DNA from: a virus | Length of the DNA stretch: 64,000 nt | IMG/VR virus record: IMGVR_UViG_3300021091_000014 | Coordinates: 1 to 64,000 of that record | Strand: one strand, 5' to 3' | Shown: positions 14,244 through 60,730 of the stretch, one piece after another | How the letters are laid out: each line of letters opens with the position of its first letter | Position numbering within the stretch: the first letter of the stretch is position 1 | Program-made: the position numbers and the translations under genes | Notes under the pieces: generated by a model | Told to the model about the DNA's origin: nothing | The model's database searches: none | Seen by the model: the letters and a program-made list of their open reading frames with translations, nothing else

Positions 14244-14471
14244 ATGAAAAAAACAGTTGCAATTCTAACAGCATTAATGTTCACAATGCCTGTTTTTGCT
14301 CAAACAAAACCAGCAGAAAAAAAAGAAGAAGCAAAGGGGGCGGTAAAACAACCTCCTCCCCCAAACATTCCTGAGCCAAAGCATGCTACCAAGCCTGCTG
14401 AAAAGAAAGATGTCAAGCCTGCAGCCAAACCAGCTGACAAGCCAGCAGAAAAGAAAGAAGCAAAGAAGTAA
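14244..14471 (+). CDS. exported Lys/Ala/Pro-rich protein (75 aa)
   Basis: A textbook signal peptide (MKKTVAILTALMFTMPVFA, cleavage before QTKP) is followed by a disordered, repetitive tail of KPAEKK-type units. Mature protein would be periplasmic and highly basic, perhaps peptidoglycan- or LPS-binding. ATG 14244 behind AAAGGAAA is preferred to 14214, which would put a charged stretch before the signal peptide. It ends where the late-promoter-like box before the tmRNA begins. Confidence 0.65.
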   Translation: MKKTVAILTALMFTMPVFAQTKPAEKKEEAKGAVKQPPPPNIPEPKHATKPAEKKDVKPAAKPADKPAEKKEAKK

Positions 14472-14477
14472 TAAATA
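14470..14477 (+). promoter_or_regulatory. late-promoter-like box before the tmRNA
   Basis: AATAAATA, one or two changes from the T4 late -10 box TATAAATA. Transcription would begin about 14484, precisely at the start of the tmRNA acceptor piece. An almost identical context (ATAAATAGTTTTATG) precedes the gene at 19186. Confidence 0.5.
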
Positions 14478-14484
14478 GTTTTAT

Positions 14485-14735
14485 GATCGTATGAAGTAGA
14501 TCAAAAGGTGTTCTGGACGGGGGTGCAAATCCCCCCACCTCCACCAAAAGGAACTTGATGCATCAGGTTTTTTTTGATGGGGGTGACTAGTTTCGACAGG
14601 GCAATGAGTAGAGAAATGGACGATCCGGCAATGTGAAAGCCGTTAGGGTTGAGACTTCTCGGCCAAAGAAACAAAACGTTAAACGCAAACGACGAAAGAT
14701 TTGCACTGGCAGCCTAAACGCTGACCGGAGTTTTT
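14485..14735 (+). ncRNA. ssrA: circularly permuted two-piece tmRNA (tag ANDERFALAA)
   Basis: The tRNA-like 3' half comes first: TTCTGGACG (14511-14519), T-stem GGGGG/CCCCC (14519-14523, 14531-14535) with loop TGCAAAT, acceptor strand CACCTCC (14536-14542), A, CCA (14544-14546). After a 32-base intervening segment the 5' half starts with GGGGGTG (14579-14585), which pairs fully with CACCTCC (one G-U), then GACTAGTTTCGACAGG, the usual tmRNA 5' domain. The tag frame GCA..TAA at 14685-14717 encodes ANDERFALAA, preceded by CGGC/GCCG (14626-14629, 14639-14642), a possible PK1 stem. ACGATC (14620-14625) can pair with GATCGT (14485-14490), joining the pieces as P2. Only about 18 bases lie between tag stop and terminator, so PK2-PK4 are absent. 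It would rescue stalled ribosomes and tag products for proteolysis. End positions of the mature pieces are inferred. Confidence 0.92.
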
Positions 14736-14777
14736 ACCTGTTTTCCTTGGCAACAGAAAAAACAGGTTCCATTTTTT
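14736..14777 (+). terminator. intrinsic terminator after the tmRNA
   Basis: Stem ACCTGTTTT (14736-14744) with AAAACAGGT (14759-14767), then TCCATTTTTT. It ends the tmRNA transcript; the next gene starts 11 bases later with its own AGAGGA site. Confidence 0.8.
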
Positions 14778-16987: not shown

Positions 16988-17035
16988 TATTTGACCGAGA
17001 GGTCACCACACACACAAACACAGAAAGGAAATATC

Positions 17036-17245
17036 ATGACAGCAAAAACTCCATACGAAATCCGTTTAGAGCTTATCAAGCTTGCCCAGGATCAACTCAA
17101 CCAGCGTTACTTTACCAATTGGGATGCTATTCGTTCCAACGCCGATCGTAATAATCAAACCATTACCGAAGTTCCGGAATTTCCTAATACTCAGCAGATA
17201 TTAATGGAAGCCGAAAAACTCAAGGCCTTTGTAGATAAAGCGTAA
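17036..17245 (+). CDS. conserved small phage protein (TPYEIRLEL type, 69 aa)
   Basis: Begins MTAKTPYEIRLELIKLAQD, a signature I know from conserved small proteins of T4-like cyanophages. Helical, two-helix layout. AAAGGAA precedes ATG 17036; the reading from 16991 adds an unrelated low-complexity start. Closed by the palindrome/terminator cassette. Confidence 0.7.
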   Translation: MTAKTPYEIRLELIKLAQDQLNQRYFTNWDAIRSNADRNNQTITEVPEFPNTQQILMEAEKLKAFVDKA

Positions 17246-26099: not shown

Positions 26100-27626
26100 A
26101 TGGCAGAACGTTCTAAGAAAATATCTGAATTAACAAGTCTATCGGCAGCTACTGCCGATGACTTGATGGTTATTGTTAATCAACCTAATACAGCAAACGC
26201 TACTACTCTAAAAATAAGCGTTGGTAATTTTTTTGCCAACGTACAGTCCAACGCTGTTTTTAGACAAAACGTAACTGTTAACGGGTCATTTACTGTTGCT
26301 AACAATTTTAACTTATCTTCTTTAACGGTAGGTTCTAGTTCTGTTAACACATTCGTTAACTCAACAATAATTGCAATTGGTACAGCATTCGTTAACACTC
26401 AGGTTAATTCGACAAGTATTAGAACGTTAGATGCTATTGTTACTGGTACAACTACAACTGGTAATACAACTATAGTAGGATACGCAAACGTAGCAGGTAC
26501 TCTCTCCGGAGGCAATACAACAGTATCCGGAATACTAACGGTAGGGGGCAGATCAAATCTTGCAAATACTGTTATTGTTGGTACAGCTAATATTGCTTCA
26601 GATTTAAGAGTAGGGTCAAATGTTTTAATTGCACCTACCTATTTGAATATTGGTAACAGTTCAGTAAATGCTTCTGTTAACTCAACAGGATTTTTTATTG
26701 ATGGAGTATCGGTTACTATCGGCGGTGGCGGCATTAAAGGTGACAAAGGCGAGGTTGGAGATAAAGGATCTACAGGAGCCGGTGACAAGGGACAAAAAGG
26801 CGAACTCGGACCTCAAGGAGATAAAGGTAATCAAGGCGATAAAGGTGATGTAGGGCCTGCCGGATCTAAAGGTGATAAAGGAGAGGTTGGCTCAACTGGT
26901 ACAACTGGCGCTACGGGCTCTAAAGGTGATAAAGGAGATAATGGTTCTAAAGGAGATACTGGTTCAACTGGTACAACTGGATCTAAAGGCGATAAAGGTG
27001 ATACTGGCTCAACTGGTACAACTGGCTCAAAAGGTGATAAAGGTGATACTGGATCCAAAGGTGACACAGGATCTAAAGGTGATAAGGGAGATAAAGGTGA
27101 TAAGGGAGACAAAGGTAACAAGGGCGAGCGTGTAGCTAATGCTACCTACAGTGACGCTAATAATACTACCGTATTTACTAATAGTGATACCTCTACATTC
27201 TCTATCAATGGTATTAAAGGTCAAAAAGGTGAGGTAGGGGCGCTTACAACTGCTAATGGTAGTAACATTGTAGTTGAAACTGAAGTAGTGTTAGAAAATC
27301 TAGCAGTTAGAATATTTAATGGTGGTGGTGCTAATAATAGAGTAGAGATAAAAGCAAACACATCAACGTTTACCGGTATTGCCGAAACAACGGTCCTTGC
27401 ATCAGGTGACTCTGTAGCTCATTATTCAGGTATTGCAGGTACTTCCGGTGCATCAAGCGTAACCGCAGCATCGTGGTTCTATCTTACACCTCAAGACCTT
27501 AATACAATTGGTGATACATCTATTAGTACTATCACTGATACAACTAACGGAAGAATGTATAGATTAACAGCTCAGTTAACCTCAACAGCTGGCAACTCAA
27601 TGATAGTGATTGAAAAATTAATTTAA
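26100..27626 (+). CDS. collagen-like tail fibre protein (508 aa)
   Basis: Residues 1-210: beta-rich stem with repeated N-S-T-V units (VGSSSVNTFVNST). Residues about 211-342: collagen-like Gly-X-Y repeats dominated by GDKG, GSKG and GTTG, forming a trimeric rod. Residues 345-508: a globular head with Thr/Ser/Asn-rich strands. This stem-rod-head order is typical of phage fibres. Related in layout to the 887-residue fibre at 31073. The nearly exact repeats invite recombination and length variation. Confidence 0.85.
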   Translation: MAERSKKISELTSLSAATADDLMVIVNQPNTANATTLKISVGNFFANVQSNAVFRQNVTVNGSFTVANNFNLSSLTVGSSSVNTFVNSTIIAIGTAFVNTQVNSTSIRTLDAIVTGTTTTGNTTIVGYANVAGTLSGGNTTVSGILTVGGRSNLANTVIVGTANIASDLRVGSNVLIAPTYLNIGNSSVNASVNSTGFFIDGVSVTIGGGGIKGDKGEVGDKGSTGAGDKGQKGELGPQGDKGNQGDKGDVGPAGSKGDKGEVGSTGTTGATGSKGDKGDNGSKGDTGSTGTTGSKGDKGDTGSTGTTGSKGDKGDTGSKGDTGSKGDKGDKGDKGDKGNKGERVANATYSDANNTTVFTNSDTSTFSINGIKGQKGEVGALTTANGSNIVVETEVVLENLAVRIFNGGGANNRVEIKANTSTFTGIAETTVLASGDSVAHYSGIAGTSGASSVTAASWFYLTPQDLNTIGDTSISTITDTTNGRMYRLTAQLTSTAGNSMIVIEKLI

Positions 27627-29753: not shown

Positions 29754-31001
29754 ATGCCTACCTTAATTACAGCTGATAATCTAGCAGCTAATACGATTAC
29801 ATCTGAGAAAATATCGAGTACGGTTGCACTCGGGGGCCCAAAAATAGCTAATGTTCAAATTGCTAACTCCTCTTGGTCAGTACTGGACGATACGGCCGTT
29901 GATGTGGGAGGGGGATACCTCTTAATTAATGGTACTGGGTTTGTTACTGGTTGCTCCGTGTTGCTTGATACGACATCAGCATCATCGGTGACGTTTGTCT
30001 CATCAACGCAACTTAGAGTAGTTGCGCAAGCCAAGTCTGCAGCAACCTACAACGCATACGTAGTAAATCCGGACGGAGGTACTGCTACAAGAGTAAATGG
30101 AATTACATACTCTGCAAGCCCTAGTTGGGTAACTGCTTCTGCTCTTGCTAATGTTGCAACTAAAACAGCTTATTCTTATCAGTTAACAGCAACCGGAGCA
30201 GCATCATATTCTCTCCAGGCTGGCTCATCTCTGCCCGCAAACTCTTCTCTTGCTGCCAATGGACTGTTTAGTGGTAATACAGACGTAGCTTCTGATACTT
30301 CTTACTCTTTTACGGTTTTAGCAACCGATAATGAATTACAAGATTCACCAAGAACGTTTAGCTTTACTGTAACAGCAATAGCTGCACCAGACATATATTT
30401 GAAAGGTGAGGAAGAACCATTAGTAGATTCTTCTTCATCGCCGCTATCATTGAGTATTTCTGGGGTTTCGAGATCACAAAATCAAGTCAATACAGGTAGC
30501 TACAGTATTTTAATTAACGGAACAAATAAAAATATATCTTTTGGAGGCACAAATTCTTCCGATTGGGATTTGGGAGTAAACAAAGGCACTAATATTATTT
30601 CAGGCGCATTTGAAATGCAAATTTATCCAATGTCGCCAGCAGCCTCCAGGTGTGCTATTATTGGTAGATACAATGAACCAGGAGAACTGGGATGGACAGT
30701 AGATTATAACAATAATGGTGCTTTATTTTTAGCCGTAAACGGCTCCGGAAGTCAGTCAGATAATGGATTATTGACTTTGAATCAATGGCAAAAACTAGCG
30801 TTGGTTTACGAAAATAATTCTGGTACTTTTCAAGTAAAAATTTATAAAAATAATTCACTCATAACAACATATAATATGTCCAGCGCAACATCACCTTCTT
30901 CTGGATATAGTTTGATGTTAGCTCCTAGATCTGGGTCCCTAAGTCTAAATGCTTACATTGATGAGTTTAAGTTTTGGAAAGGAAGCAGAGGTCCGTACTA
31001 A
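29754..31001 (+). CDS. IPT/Ig and lectin-like tail fibre protein (415 aa)
   Basis: Residues 1-40: Thr/Ser/Ala-rich fibre attachment region (LITADNLAANTIT). Residues 45-120: IPT/TIG-type Ig domain ending VVNPDGGTATRVNGITY. Residues 125-210: a second putative-Ig domain (SLPANSSLAANGLFSG). Residues 240-415: a concanavalin/LamG-like beta-sandwich (GRYNEPGELGWTVDY, INLNQWQKLALVYEN-like NQWQKLALVYEN). The first part is paralogous to the proteins at 37510 and 39297. A sugar-binding fibre is inferred. Confidence 0.75.
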   Translation: MPTLITADNLAANTITSEKISSTVALGGPKIANVQIANSSWSVLDDTAVDVGGGYLLINGTGFVTGCSVLLDTTSASSVTFVSSTQLRVVAQAKSAATYNAYVVNPDGGTATRVNGITYSASPSWVTASALANVATKTAYSYQLTATGAASYSLQAGSSLPANSSLAANGLFSGNTDVASDTSYSFTVLATDNELQDSPRTFSFTVTAIAAPDIYLKGEEEPLVDSSSSPLSLSISGVSRSQNQVNTGSYSILINGTNKNISFGGTNSSDWDLGVNKGTNIISGAFEMQIYPMSPAASRCAIIGRYNEPGELGWTVDYNNNGALFLAVNGSGSQSDNGLLTLNQWQKLALVYENNSGTFQVKIYKNNSLITTYNMSSATSPSSGYSLMLAPRSGSLSLNAYIDEFKFWKGSRGPY

Positions 31002-31072: not shown

Positions 31073-33736
<2,664 letters not shown>

Positions 33737-37509: not shown

Positions 37510-39036
37510 ATGGCATTAACTACTATCCCTATTTCAGGTCTAGAATCAAACGTTGTCCAGCAAATTCAGTCTGGTGGCGGGATACCTAGAATTATTTCTA
37601 TTTCTTATCCAGGGGATGATACAGCGGCCTTGCCAGCCGGTGGTCAAACTATTACCATAAATGGGTCTAATTTTTTATTGACAAGTGCTGTGTATGTTGA
37701 TGGTGCCCAGGTTGGAGTAGTATCATATGTTAATGCTAATACTCTGACATTTGTTACACCAGCTAAAGTAGCATCTAATTATTCGTTATACGTTGTAAAC
37801 CCTGACGGCGCTACAGCCATTGCTGTTCCGGGAGTTTCTTTTTCTAATGCGCCTGTCTGGTCAACATCATCAGGTTCTATTGGTACTCCATATGAAACTA
37901 CAGCTTTCAGTATAAACCTTTCTGCTACAGGTGACGGTTCTGTTTCTTATGCAATGGCAGCTGGAAATACTTTACCGACCGGACTAACGCTTGCAGCAAA
38001 TGGATTGTTAAGCGGCACTATACCTGCAACAGACCCTTCTACAACATATACATTTTACGTTGATGCTGTTGACGATCAAAATCAAGAAACATCAAGATCG
38101 TTTAGTGTCACATATACAAAAGATGAGGTGATATGGTCGTCCCCAGCAAACGGTGCTGCTTATGCCTGGGATATGTCAGTGGCTAATAACTTCACACTCA
38201 CAGCTAACAGCGCTGCTGGTAAATCTATAACTTATACAGTACAATCTGGATCTCTTCCAGCAAACGTTTCTATCTCGAACAACAGCGTTACAGGCACACC
38301 AAATTCTGTTCAGGCCAACACTTCGGTCGTAATAAGAGCTACAGCTAACGGAACTAATCGCTTTGCGGATAGAACTCTTTATTTTGCAATCATCGATCCA
38401 GCACCTTCTACTATAGGTCAATTTTATCAAGGTGGTTACTATGCCGGGCAAATTTATTATGAAGATACGGGTGTTCAGTATTACCTATTAGTAGCACCAA
38501 AAGCATCTGGTGAATCACAGCAAGTTTTAGGTCCGATGAATAATACAGTCCCTATCGGACAATCTCGAGTAGCTGGCCCATTATATTACGATGGGTATAA
38601 CGCTACTCATAATAATAACAACAGCACGTGGCCGGCTTTTCAGTGGGCTAGAAGTCTCAATATAAACGGATATACTGATTGGTATATACCATCTATTATG
38701 GAATTTGATATTATTGCCTACCATCTTAGCCCTGGGAGATCGTCGTCCTACGGAGATTGGTTTGTGCCGTCTTATGCAGGATACGGGGTATCTAATCGAA
38801 ACCCCTATGCAAGAGTTCCATCTGCAGCAACGTTAAATAGTAGTAGTTATTACGATACAACTTCTGTAGCAGCATTTCAAACTTCCGGGGCTCAAAAATT
38901 TGAGAGTAGTCAGTACTGGTCAACTACAAAGGAAGATTCGGTAGCATATGCCATTAGCTTTCCGCTTGGCAGATTAAATGGGGTTTTTGCTAATAACTCC
39001 CTCTACACACGCGCCATAAGAAGGGTGGCTGTTTAA
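37510..39036 (+). CDS. IPT/Ig adhesin with C-terminal DUF1566 head (508 aa)
   Basis: Residues 1-25: attachment (TTIPISGLESNVVQQIQSG). 28-112: IPT/TIG Ig domain (GGQTITINGSNF, ending NPDGATAIAVPGVSF). 115-295: two putative-Ig modules (AMAAGNTLPTGLTLAANGLLSG). 300-508: DUF1566 (GGYYAGQIYY, NINGYTDWYIPS, QYWSTT, terminal TRAIRRVAV). The first 295 residues parallel the protein at 39297; the head parallels the small genes at 2757-4617. Tail fibre/adhesin by inference. Confidence 0.8.
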   Translation: MALTTIPISGLESNVVQQIQSGGGIPRIISISYPGDDTAALPAGGQTITINGSNFLLTSAVYVDGAQVGVVSYVNANTLTFVTPAKVASNYSLYVVNPDGATAIAVPGVSFSNAPVWSTSSGSIGTPYETTAFSINLSATGDGSVSYAMAAGNTLPTGLTLAANGLLSGTIPATDPSTTYTFYVDAVDDQNQETSRSFSVTYTKDEVIWSSPANGAAYAWDMSVANNFTLTANSAAGKSITYTVQSGSLPANVSISNNSVTGTPNSVQANTSVVIRATANGTNRFADRTLYFAIIDPAPSTIGQFYQGGYYAGQIYYEDTGVQYYLLVAPKASGESQQVLGPMNNTVPIGQSRVAGPLYYDGYNATHNNNNSTWPAFQWARSLNINGYTDWYIPSIMEFDIIAYHLSPGRSSSYGDWFVPSYAGYGVSNRNPYARVPSAATLNSSSYYDTTSVAAFQTSGAQKFESSQYWSTTKEDSVAYAISFPLGRLNGVFANNSLYTRAIRRVAV

Positions 39037-39045
39037 AAAAATTAT

Positions 39046-39297
39046 ATGCACGATATTGAAATGTTCGATAAAACTTCTTCGAGGATAGCCGTGTTAGAAA
39101 ACGAGGTTAAGAATATTGCTTCTGACGTTAAAGAAATGCGCCAGGAGCAAAAAGAGCAGCATGAAATATTACTAAAAAAATTCTCCACAATGGATAATAG
39201 ACTGTCTATTGTTGAAAAATGGAGGTGGATGCTTTTAGGAGCCGCAGCCGTGGCTGGATATATAATTGCACACATTAGAATAGAAAGGCTGTTTTAA
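39046..39297 (+). CDS. coiled-coil membrane protein, XhlA/holin-accessory-like (83 aa)
   Basis: Residues 8-60: amphipathic coiled coil (SRIAVLENEVKNIASDVKEM); 62-78: one membrane span (MLLGAAAVAGYIIAHI) near the C-terminus. This order matches haemolysin-XhlA-type proteins linked with holins. TAATG overlap leads to the next fibre gene. A lysis role is plausible but not shown. Confidence 0.55.
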   Translation: MHDIEMFDKTSSRIAVLENEVKNIASDVKEMRQEQKEQHEILLKKFSTMDNRLSIVEKWRWMLLGAAAVAGYIIAHIRIERLF

Positions 39298-41495
39298 TGC
39301 CATCACCATTAACCACTATTCCAGCTACCGGGCTTGAGGCTAATCTTGTAAGTACAATTACCCAGGGTGTTGGTCCAAAGATTACAACCATAACATATGC
39401 CGGTGATGATACAGCTGCACTACCGGCTGGTGGTCAAACTATAACTATAAACGGTTCAGGATTTAAAAATACAAGTACTGTTTATATTGATGGTGCTGTT
39501 GTTGGAGTAGTTTCTTTTATTGATGCAAACACATTAACGTTTGTAGCACCAGCGAAAGCAGCATCTAATTATTCACTGTATGTTGTTAATGTCGATGGTG
39601 CAACAGCAATCTCTGTCCCCGGCATCACTTATTCTAATGCTCCTGTCTGGTCTACTTCTTCTGGTTCTGTTGGATCCCCGTACGAAGCAAATACATTTAA
39701 CGTAAGCCTTTCGGCTACTGGTGATGGCTCTGTTACGTATGCGATGGCCGCTGGTAACTCGCTGCCCTCCGGGCTTACCCTTGCATCTAATGGATATATT
39801 TCAGGTACAGTGCCTGCTACAGATCCTACTACTACGTATACATTTTATGTAGATGCGATAGATTCACAAAATCAAGAGACTACAAGATCATTTAGTATCA
39901 CTTATAATAAGGACGCAGTTACTTGGTCATCACCAGCAAACGGTACTGCTTATTCTCTTTTTACTGGCACAGCTAATACAATCTCTCTTTCTGCAACCAG
40001 TGCATCAGGTAGAGGAATAACCTACTCAGTTCAATCAGGCTCTCTTCCAGCTAACTTAAGCATTTCGGGCAGTTCTATTACGGGAACGCCTAATACTGCT
40101 CAGGTTAATACTTCCGTTACGATTAGAGCTACAGTGGCTGCCGCTAGCAGGGTGGCCGATCTCGTACTTTATTTTCTTACACAAGCTGATCCACAGCGTT
40201 TCTCTAATTTTAATATTAGTGATAGTAATGCTCAGATTCAAGCCGGTGAGTTTGAAGTAGACTCAGGAGTTAATTTCTGCTATGGTGCTCTGCGTTACGG
40301 TTCAAACCGCTCATTAGCTATTTTTAAATATAATTTAGATACACAATCAGTGGTTTGGGCAAAAGATATAAATGTATCTGGATTGCTTTCTTATTATACT
40401 GGGAGTATGAGTATAGGTAATGGAAAGTTGTTTATTCCAATAGGTGTTGATTCCCCTGAATATAACATTATAATGTTAGCTCTTTTGACAAGTGATGGTA
40501 ATATAGTGTGGAAAAAATTGTATGATTCAGAGGATTATAGTGTCTCAGGATCCACAGATGCTCCTTCATCCTATCAAAAATCTGTTATTTTTAATTCAAA
40601 TTCTAATACAGTTTGGTTTGCTCAAAATGGCGGTAATGATGCAGGCTGGTTGGTTTTAAACGAGTCAACGGGTAGTCTGGCGTCCCCACAATATGCCTTT
40701 TACAGTACTTTTTCAGGAGGAACAAATGCTGATATTTATGGGGGATTTATATCCGGAAACACTATAACAAGCTACCATAACCCTAACGCCGGTGATCCTG
40801 CTTACGTAATAGCAAACACCAGTTGGGCGACGTCTCCAACAGCAAGAAGATTAACATATAGTGGATCACTTTATCACGAATCTGCATTTCTTAATAATAA
40901 TGGCGATTTTGTCGGAGTAGTTATAAAATATTCAAACGGTCCTATATTAAATTCTGCTAGTCAAAAAGAGTACTGTATTACCACTCCTACAGGTAGTAAT
41001 ACATTCTGGTTTACCCCTGCAGTTGCTAATGGTAAAAGTTATAGCTTTGTACGGCGAGTAGTGGATTATGATGGTAGTTATTATGTATTTGGATCCCATG
41101 ATTTTGGAGGATCGGCCGAATACAAAAATTCACCTTTTTTAATAAAATTTACTAATAAAACCGTAAGTTGGGCTGTAAGATTCAGACAGGATAATAATAT
41201 TCCAGAAATATATCCTACAGTAGCAGCTGCTACTGTATCAGGTAACAAATGCTATTTTTCTTTCTATCAAAATATCTTTACCTACCCCACAGCAGGGGGC
41301 ATAACCGGTACTTTAACTGCAGGAGGAATAACTTATACAATAGAAAATATAACAATCAGTACATCTAATGCTGAAGTTACATCTAGCTCTATTGGTGCCG
41401 GGCTCTATACAGATTCAGGTGGTAAGACTTTTAGTGATGCGTCTGGGCTTTCCATATCCAATAAAAACATAACACTTACTTCTAACACATATTAG
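39297..41495 (+). CDS. IPT/Ig adhesin with beta-propeller-like head (732 aa)
   Basis: Residues 1-295 follow the domain order and often the wording of the protein at 37510 (GDDTAALPAGGQTITING, AKAASNYSLYVVN, SLPANLSISGSSITGTPN). Residues 300-732 are a different head with recurring blades of the PQQ/YVTN-like kind: VVWAKDINVSG, NIVWKKLYDSED, KTVSWAVRF. A stalk shared with its neighbour and a different binding head mark domain exchange. Fibre or adhesin by inference. Confidence 0.75.
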   Translation: MPSPLTTIPATGLEANLVSTITQGVGPKITTITYAGDDTAALPAGGQTITINGSGFKNTSTVYIDGAVVGVVSFIDANTLTFVAPAKAASNYSLYVVNVDGATAISVPGITYSNAPVWSTSSGSVGSPYEANTFNVSLSATGDGSVTYAMAAGNSLPSGLTLASNGYISGTVPATDPTTTYTFYVDAIDSQNQETTRSFSITYNKDAVTWSSPANGTAYSLFTGTANTISLSATSASGRGITYSVQSGSLPANLSISGSSITGTPNTAQVNTSVTIRATVAAASRVADLVLYFLTQADPQRFSNFNISDSNAQIQAGEFEVDSGVNFCYGALRYGSNRSLAIFKYNLDTQSVVWAKDINVSGLLSYYTGSMSIGNGKLFIPIGVDSPEYNIIMLALLTSDGNIVWKKLYDSEDYSVSGSTDAPSSYQKSVIFNSNSNTVWFAQNGGNDAGWLVLNESTGSLASPQYAFYSTFSGGTNADIYGGFISGNTITSYHNPNAGDPAYVIANTSWATSPTARRLTYSGSLYHESAFLNNNGDFVGVVIKYSNGPILNSASQKEYCITTPTGSNTFWFTPAVANGKSYSFVRRVVDYDGSYYVFGSHDFGGSAEYKNSPFLIKFTNKTVSWAVRFRQDNNIPEIYPTVAAATVSGNKCYFSFYQNIFTYPTAGGITGTLTAGGITYTIENITISTSNAEVTSSSIGAGLYTDSGGKTFSDASGLSISNKNITLTSNTY

Positions 41496-45574: not shown

Positions 45575-46564
45575 ATGAAAAAAATAGATTTAAATCTTTC
45601 AGAAAACAGAGATCATTTTAAACCATTTTATTACCCATGGGCGTATGAGGCATGGCTAAAGCACGAACAATCACACTGGCTTCATACTGAAGTGCCGATG
45701 CTCGAAGATGTAAAAGACTGGAATAAAAAATTAACACAGTCAGAAAAAACTTTTCTTACTAATATTTTTAGATTTTTTACACAGGGTGATATTGATGTTG
45801 CTGGAGGGTACGTTAAGAATTATTTACCTTATTTTCCTCAACCAGAAGTAAGAATGATGCTTTTAGGTTTTGCCGCAAGAGAGGCACTACACGTTGCAGC
45901 ATACTCCCATCTTATTGAGACTCTTGGATTACCAGAAACAATGTATAATGAATTTTTAGAGTATCAAGAAATGAGAGAAAAACATGAATATGTAATGGAT
46001 ATATCGGCTAAGAATTCGACTAAAGAAAATACTGCAACACATATTGCAGTATTCTCAGCCTTTACGGAAGGCATGCAACTTTTCTCTTCATTTATTATGC
46101 TACTTAATTTTCCAAGGCACGGCAAAATGAAAGGTATGGGTCAAATAATTACTTGGTCTATTGTTGATGAGACAATGCATACAGAGAATATGCTCAAGTT
46201 ATTTAAAACTTTTATTAATGAAAATCCAGAAGTATGGAATGATAGTCTTAAGTCTAAAATTTACACCATTGCAGAGAAAATGGTTGAGCTGGAAGATAAG
46301 TTTATTGATCTTGCATTTAAGTTAGGACCAATGGAAAATTTAACACCTGAGCAAGTTAAACAATATATTAGATATATTGCGGATAGAAGACTTATTTCGA
46401 TGGGTATGAAAGGTATTTTTAAAGTAAAACGTAACCCACTATTGTGGGTTGAAGAAATGATTAACGCCCCTATACATGGAAACTTTTTTGAAAATCGAGT
46501 TACTGATTATGCAAAAGGAGCTTTATCCGGTAGATGGGACGATGTATGGGGGAAGGCAGCATAA
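45575..46564 (+). CDS. nrdB: ribonucleotide reductase beta subunit (329 aa)
   Basis: The diiron ligands are all visible: D in GDIDVAGG near residue 73, E and H in REALHVAAYSHL near 107 (with the radical-type Tyr in the usual place), E in FTEGMQLF near 167, E and H in DETMHTENM near 200. Complete class I NrdB supplying the tyrosyl radical. ATG 45575 behind AAGGGA is preferred to 45569. TAATG leads into a 20-codon frame. Confidence 0.93.
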   Translation: MKKIDLNLSENRDHFKPFYYPWAYEAWLKHEQSHWLHTEVPMLEDVKDWNKKLTQSEKTFLTNIFRFFTQGDIDVAGGYVKNYLPYFPQPEVRMMLLGFAAREALHVAAYSHLIETLGLPETMYNEFLEYQEMREKHEYVMDISAKNSTKENTATHIAVFSAFTEGMQLFSSFIMLLNFPRHGKMKGMGQIITWSIVDETMHTENMLKLFKTFINENPEVWNDSLKSKIYTIAEKMVELEDKFIDLAFKLGPMENLTPEQVKQYIRYIADRRLISMGMKGIFKVKRNPLLWVEEMINAPIHGNFFENRVTDYAKGALSGRWDDVWGKAA

Positions 46565-60169: not shown

Positions 60170-60730
60170 ATGCTAAAGTCAGTAGACACTTTAGACGATA
60201 AAACTACACTGGTGCTGAAATCGTTCATTTACGCTATATGCACCCTGTTAGTATTTACCTTGGTAACTACTACATTTAAGCAAAAAATTAATTCGTTTAG
60301 TTTAAACGGAATTCCAGCAACTTATACCGCAGAGCAAAGAGTTAAACAGTTAGATTGTTTAGCACTAAACATTTATAAAGAAGCTGGATACGAACCATTT
60401 GAAGGAAAGGTAGCAGTTGCCCAAGTAACTATTAACAGAGCAAATGATCCTAGATTTCCAAAAGACATTTGCCAGGTAGTTTATCAGAAAAATTTTTTTT
60501 ACAAAAAAACAGTCTGTCAATTTTCCTGGTATTGTGATATTATTCATAAAAACAGGCCTGTCAATCCAGCTGCATTTAATGAAAGTTACGAAGTCGCTAA
60601 AAAGGTATTGCTAGAAAATTTTCGTCTTAATGGACTTAAAGACGCTCTTTACTATCATGCAGATTATGTTAACCCTAAATGGAATAAAGAAAAGGTAGGT
60701 AAAATTGGACGCCACATCTTCTACAAATAA
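60170..60730 (+). CDS. SleB-type cell-wall hydrolase (186 aa)
   Basis: An N-terminal membrane span (residues 17-36, signal-anchor) followed by Hydrolase_2/SleB: CLALNIYKEAGYEPFEGKVAVAQV near residue 63 (catalytic Glu), INRANDPRFPKDICQVVYQ near 88, CQFSWYCD near 115 and ALYYHADYVNPKW near 160. It would cut peptidoglycan glycan bonds from the periplasmic side. A second lytic enzyme beside the M15 peptidase. Confidence 0.8.
   Translation: MLKSVDTLDDKTTLVLKSFIYAICTLLVFTLVTTTFKQKINSFSLNGIPATYTAEQRVKQLDCLALNIYKEAGYEPFEGKVAVAQVTINRANDPRFPKDICQVVYQKNFFYKKTVCQFSWYCDIIHKNRPVNPAAFNESYEVAKKVLLENFRLNGLKDALYYHADYVNPKWNKEKVGKIGRHIFYK

Follow-up and report, generated by a model that had tools for sequence, protein, structure and literature searches.

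The window, that is, the whole stretch of DNA analysed here (64,000 nucleotides), comprises bases 1-64000 of a 156,637-base IMG/VR virus record, a metagenomic virus contig. Judged from its sequence, the segment at 14485-14777 is a phage-encoded gene for a circularly permuted, two-piece tmRNA, a kind of RNA that releases stalled ribosomes and adds a tag to incomplete proteins. The record as a whole contains no other permuted tmRNA. The parts of the gene and the candidate elements around and within it are the following:

14470..14477, + strand: box AATAAATA, a candidate by consensus match, like the T4 late-promoter box TATAAATA
14485..14546, + strand: acceptor piece (3′ tRNA-like half), from the RF04321/RF01850 alignments and helix covariation
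14547..14578, + strand: intervening segment (IVS) of 32 nt between CCA and G1, expected to be excised
14548..14552, + strand: Shine-Dalgarno-like AAGGA, from the sequence, right after CCA and paired inside the IVS helix
14558..14590, + strand: candidate mini-ORF MHQVFFDGGD and stop, from the sequence
14579..14585, + strand: 5′ end of the coding piece, with G1 and the acceptor strand GGGGGUG, from Rfam alignment and covariation
14586..14684, + strand: remainder of the 5′ tRNA-like half, from Rfam alignment and covariation
14685..14717, + strand: tag frame, from ARAGORN
14736..14767, + strand: conserved 3′ hairpin of the coding piece with CCTTGGCAACAGAA, from its fold and the motif count in relatives

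The initial annotation had proposed a permuted two-piece tmRNA and a check against Rfam tmRNA models, and the matches obtained are far beyond chance. In an all-Rfam scan, 14485-14717 matches the full tmRNA_permuted model (RF04321) with 130.2 bits (E 3.5e-25, gathering score 47), and 14433-14771 matches beta_tmRNA (RF01850) with 100.3 bits (E 2.6e-29), covering the whole of that model (1-331) above its curated gathering score of 84 bits. ARAGORN, which is independent of Rfam, also finds a permuted tmRNA with the tag ANDERFALAA. The organization is that of a permuted tmRNA throughout: the 3′ tRNA-like half with its CCA comes first, followed by the IVS and then by the 5′ half; there is an acceptor stem with G3.U70, a T-arm, and P2; and the tag frame ends in small hydrophobic residues and a stop.

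Within the acceptor piece, the P2 strand GAUCG is followed by the T-arm (GGGGG-UGCAAAU-CCCCC), the acceptor strand CACCUCC, and the ACCA end. The positions annotated for CCA (14546) and for the G1 that opens the second piece (14579) are correct, and a cut by RNase P is expected between 14578 and 14579. The acceptor stem had been described as a perfect 7-bp helix; all 7 bp are indeed paired (GGGGGUG/CACCUCC), but one of them is the G3.U70 wobble, and the stem is therefore not all Watson-Crick. This wobble is a determinant for alanyl-tRNA synthetase. In the coding piece, 14586-14684 holds the D-loop, the P2 strand CGAUC, and the stretch up to the resume codon.

For comparison, 173 distinct permuted tmRNAs were gathered from phages and from viral contigs, bearing in mind that IMG/VR contigs can carry misassigned DNA; 57 of them have the D-loop/P2 type of the window. 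Over 55 distinct mature sequences, pairing is complete (100%) in the acceptor stem and T-arm and reaches 96% and 94% in the two P2 helices. Within the tRNA domain, every helix has 23-50 double-changed cells, which exceeds every control with a strand slid by 1-3 bases; these are counts over related sequences and not independent events. G3.U70 is present in 55/55 phage relatives. Covariation also links positions 18 and 55, which are in contact at the elbow of folded tRNA: 103 genes have A18-G55 and 65 have G18-U55 (168 of 173, with 5 exceptions). The window has the former combination, D-loop A18 at 14589 matching T-loop G55 at 14525.

The tag frame, previously read as ANDERFALAA followed by a stop, was located at 14685-14717 (GCA AAC GAC GAA AGA TTT GCA CTG GCA GCC TAA), and the same tag is found in the viral contigs L123, L126, and L128. 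In other contigs (L009, L049, L063, L065, L077, L082, and L089), ARAGORN gives tags of 22-27 residues, such as ANAFKPEVTVPMSVFADQELVAA, which are unusually long and possibly miscalled. The intrinsic terminator that had been annotated after the tag stands only in part. The hairpin at 14736-14767 is mainly the conserved 3′ hairpin of the tmRNA, since its AACAGAA loop motif recurs in 39/57 phage relatives and a T run of at least 5 follows it in just 9 of these 39; conservation of the motif rules out that the hairpin is nothing but a terminator. Nevertheless, the T6 run located 3′ of it, at 14772-14777, may add a terminator in the window.

A phage tmRNA could also be a non-functional relic captured from a host. 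Capture is plausible because the tag ANDERFALAA, a common one in betaproteobacteria, is combined here with a match to the beta model. Nevertheless, all helices and G3.U70 have been kept, the tag frame is intact, the closest relatives have the same tag at about 90% identity, and permuted tmRNAs are recurrent across the T4-like group, all of which makes a relic very improbable. The structure, the covariation of all tRNA-domain helices, the invariant G3.U70, the intact tag, and the recurrence in the phage group support a complete tmRNA gene.

The source virus is, by its sequence, a T4-like phage. Its major capsid protein is of the T4 type (Pfam Gp23, E 2.2e-149), with 72% identity to that of Stenotrophomonas phage DLP6 and 68% to those of both Pelagibacter phage HTVC008M and Methylophilales phage Melnitz, isolates that each bear a permuted tmRNA. 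In blastn searches of the gene and of 20 kb of the window against 50,697 phage records, there were zero matches; thus, these records include no close isolate. A search of plasmids yielded nothing beyond short matches of about 40 bases. Elsewhere in the window, there are collagen-repeat proteins (31073-33736 and 26100-27626) and proteins with putative Ig-like (He_PIG/TIG) domains (29754-31001, 37510-39036, and 39297-41495), which are likely tail or surface proteins.

A scan of genomes for the tmRNA returned one MAG contig only, L134 (DITF01000195.1). At 1803-2365, it carries a complete one-piece tmRNA with the tag ADEDYALAA; after the 3′ half of this one-piece form come an IVS of the phage type and another 5′ half, whose tag is ANDDTYLLAANA. 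This arrangement was considered as an evolutionary intermediate and set aside, as its resemblance to phage contigs starts at the shared T-arm, and an integration or a chimeric assembly would explain it equally well; recombination at that arm is another possible origin.

In L123 and similar relatives, the tmRNA belongs to a block with the order PhoH, exonuclease, tmRNA, homolog of the window gene at 16991-17245, homolog of that at 60170-60730, and single-strand DNA-binding protein. The window has its tmRNA and its 16991-17245 gene at 14.5-17.2 kb, separated from each other by four tRNAs and a 2OG-Fe(II) oxygenase gene and lying about 40 kb from the remainder of the block. The possibility that the genes after the Melnitz tmRNA are homologs of 16991-17245 and 60170-60730 obtained no support from the comparison.

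Upstream of the acceptor piece, at 15 nt, AATAAATA differs from the T4 late promoter by one mismatch. A late-type box with at most one mismatch is present in this zone in 84/153 distinct relatives, compared with a mean of 11.8 and a maximum of 20 in shuffles, and it is the only promoter type enriched in the relatives; matches to sigma-70-type promoters around the window gene are at chance level. This enrichment suggests late transcription of the tmRNA gene. Directly before its acceptor piece, L123 has a perfect sigma-70 pattern (TTGACA-17-TATAAT) at the place where the window has the late-type box.

From these features, we infer a pathway of transcription, cutting, charging, tagging, and benefit for the phage. 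A single transcript would start just upstream of the gene, perhaps at the T4-late-type promoter. RNase P would then cut 5′ of G1, the other piece would be trimmed to its CCA end, and both pieces would be held together by the acceptor stem and P2. Once charged with alanine, the tmRNA would bind SmpB; searches of the whole record for SmpB and SspB found neither, so that this protein would have to come from the host. ANDERFALAA would be added to peptides stalled on broken mRNA, releasing the ribosomes for the synthesis of phage proteins and directing the tagged peptides to host proteases. Instead of supplementing rescue, the phage RNA might compete with host tmRNA for SmpB or redirect proteolysis by means of its own tag. 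In favor of this, host tmRNA is reportedly inhibited by a tmRNA-like domain similar to the one in mycobacteriophage DS6A (PMC4131195, PMC11915505), and the tags of phages are very diverse. Yet DS6A lacks a tag frame, whereas the window has a full tag ending in ALAA, and we regard competition or redirection as unlikely. Taken as a whole, it is highly probable that a T4-like phage has here a complete gene for a permuted tmRNA, which acts in the rescue pathway outlined above. Such a phage-borne rescue RNA bears on how phages sustain translation during the destruction of host mRNA.

The IVS of a tmRNA is usually regarded as a discarded spacer. In the window, a 12-bp hairpin predicted at 14547-14574 prolongs the acceptor stem (fold -8.6 kcal/mol, z -3.4). 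Among 153 distinct IVSs, the register of an end-to-end helix is 87% paired with 332 double-changed cells, while other registers are 39-59% paired with 51-128 such cells. A T8 run within the IVS was considered as a terminator between the pieces, and this was dropped, for the run forms one strand of the conserved helix in the IVS.

In relatives, the IVS can be longer. Scans for such segments, which needed exact motifs and sampled diversity unevenly, gave 86 distinct IVSs of about 100-180 nt in viral contigs. An ORF with a ribosome site near CCA spans 38 of the 86, compared with a mean of 2.2 in mononucleotide shuffles, and none of 200 shuffles reached 38. The ratio pN/pS ranges from 0.06 to 0.59 across ten families of IVS ORFs. 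In a family of tryptophan-rich, hydrophobic ORFs with 29 IVS codons, the frame is open in 12/12 distinct genes and third-position changes are in excess, a level reached by 40 of 10,000 column permutations. All these statistics are descriptive only, because the sequences share ancestry. A site and start codon of this class, AAAGGACTTTT-ATG, have the same geometry as those of the window; further cases are an unannotated IVS ORF of Melnitz (MZ577097 46096-46260) and one of roughly 97 aa in L226, from a Gp23-bearing record. These data point with high probability to the existence of coding IVSs in this phage group.

Small ORFs with a ribosome site, conserved at the protein level, fill the IVSs in L232-L384, L226, L127, L399-L438, and Melnitz. 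In IVSs of 159 nt (L232, L247, L251, L260, L267, and others), two overlapping ORFs are found per segment: a leader of 19-25 codons (for instance, VEQVLIGGQDEEPSSTKGK and stop) and a conserved hydrophobic protein of 38 aa (MKNPLV...YLIFF and stop) with pN/pS of 0.24. Ten IVS microproteins compared with PHROG gave nothing better than E 0.039, and two that were searched in phage records had no match. In the literature searched, which included few subscription papers, no report of protein-coding tmRNA IVSs was found; the paper on the tmRNA database, which contains 11,946 unique permuted sequences, names no IVS contents other than a tRNA gene and a repetitive element (PMC11915505).

The IVS of the window reads AAAGGAACTTG-ATG-CAT-CAG-GTT-TTT-TTT-GAT and continues with GGG-GGT-GAC-TAG. 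Thus, as in the coding class, a ribosome site lies beside CCA and a start codon near +11; the ATG is 11 nt past CCA, and the stop is the UAG of the tmRNA D-loop. Both the start position and the frame into GAT-GGG match a family of 98-nt IVSs (MF..WHWVYLWGI...KSLYDGGD and stop), and the length gap between 98 and 32 is 66 nt, or 22 codons. In addition, AAGG or AGGA occurs in the first 8 nt of 49/107 longer IVSs but of only 1/46 distinct IVSs shorter than 98 nt, and that one is the window. There is an even chance that the IVS of the window is a shrunken coding IVS, possibly formed by an in-frame deletion. Its mini-ORF is known from this one sequence, no close relative having the same IVS, and what ties it to the coding class is therefore position, frame, and rarity.

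For the window, this origin and a chance resemblance are about equally likely. In the second case, to which we assign a nearly even chance, the site, the ATG, and the 10-codon ORF would be accidental, AAAGGA would be present solely for pairing with the U-rich stretch at the 3′ end of the segment, and the gene would be a plain permuted tmRNA. Many IVSs do start with AAAG, as their first bases pair with the 3′ end of the same segment, and a start codon of some kind is found at +11 in 5/46 short IVSs. Moreover, the ORF of the window spans the IVS but has 10 codons only, has no comparable relative from which conservation could be read, and has no hydrophobic segment. An accident accounts less well for a site otherwise confined to the longer IVSs, and for an ATG exactly at +11 whose frame and whose 22-codon difference agree with the 98-nt family.

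Returning to a shrunken coding IVS, the group may carry two genes in one, its IVSs encoding microproteins and the window being a reduced form; we hold this joint proposal tentatively, at slightly less than an even chance. The stem connecting the two tmRNA pieces would enclose the ribosome site of the IVS and thereby couple microprotein synthesis to the maturation of the tmRNA. As in many members of the class, the frame of the window has no stop before G1, and the cut at G1 would therefore leave a nonstop mini-message. That this message is a substrate of the very tmRNA cut from it, in a feedback, is improbable. If conserved microprotein genes do lie in the IVSs of many viral contigs and of Melnitz, they would constitute a set of unannotated phage proteins, and coding IVSs would connect RNA processing with translation in a way that can be tested. 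The interest of the locus rests mainly on these coding IVSs of relatives and on their possible remnant in the window.

With regard to known systems, the marine methylophage tmRNA mentioned in the initial annotation does exist: it is that of Melnitz (MZ577097), published as a two-piece form (PMC9004378). In that study, 53 of the 133 unique phage tmRNA structures are two-piece forms; therefore, the window is a further case of a known kind, and its tmRNA is less novel than had been supposed. Melnitz ssrA (MZ577097, gene 86; PMC9004378) is, like the window, a permuted two-piece tmRNA of a T4-like phage with A18/G55 loops. Among the clade-specific Rfam models, it scores best with alpha (106.7 bits), whereas the window gene does so with beta; its tag is ANDNYVPVDYALAA instead of ANDERFALAA; its IVS, between the CCA at 46076 and G1 at 46219, has 142 nt and an unannotated ORF, compared with 32 nt in the window; and a glutamine riboswitch lies 3′ of its tmRNA, which was not found in the window.

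The betaproteobacterial permuted tmRNA (RF01850) shares with the window the order of the parts, the tRNA domain, and the 3′ hairpin, but its consensus loops are G18/U55, while the window gene has A18/G55 and is phage-borne. Stenotrophomonas phage vB_SmaS-DLP_6, also T4-like, is the closest isolate by major capsid (72%), and its tmRNA also matches the beta model (103.7 bits). In contrast to ANDERFALAA, A18/G55, and the AAGGA of the window, DLP6 has the tag ANDDSFAPMAIAA, G18/U55 loops, and a 31-nt IVS without AAGGA. The DLP6 tmRNA (KU682439.2, 102838-103059) is without annotation in its record. The closest tmRNAs are those of the IMG/VR contigs L123, L126, and L128, with 89% identity in the acceptor piece, 91% in the coding piece, and a shared tag. 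Their IVS has 68 nt and no ribosome site, while that of the window has 32 nt and includes one; and in L123 and L126 the tmRNA stands in a conserved block after the exonuclease gene, whereas in the window it has moved.
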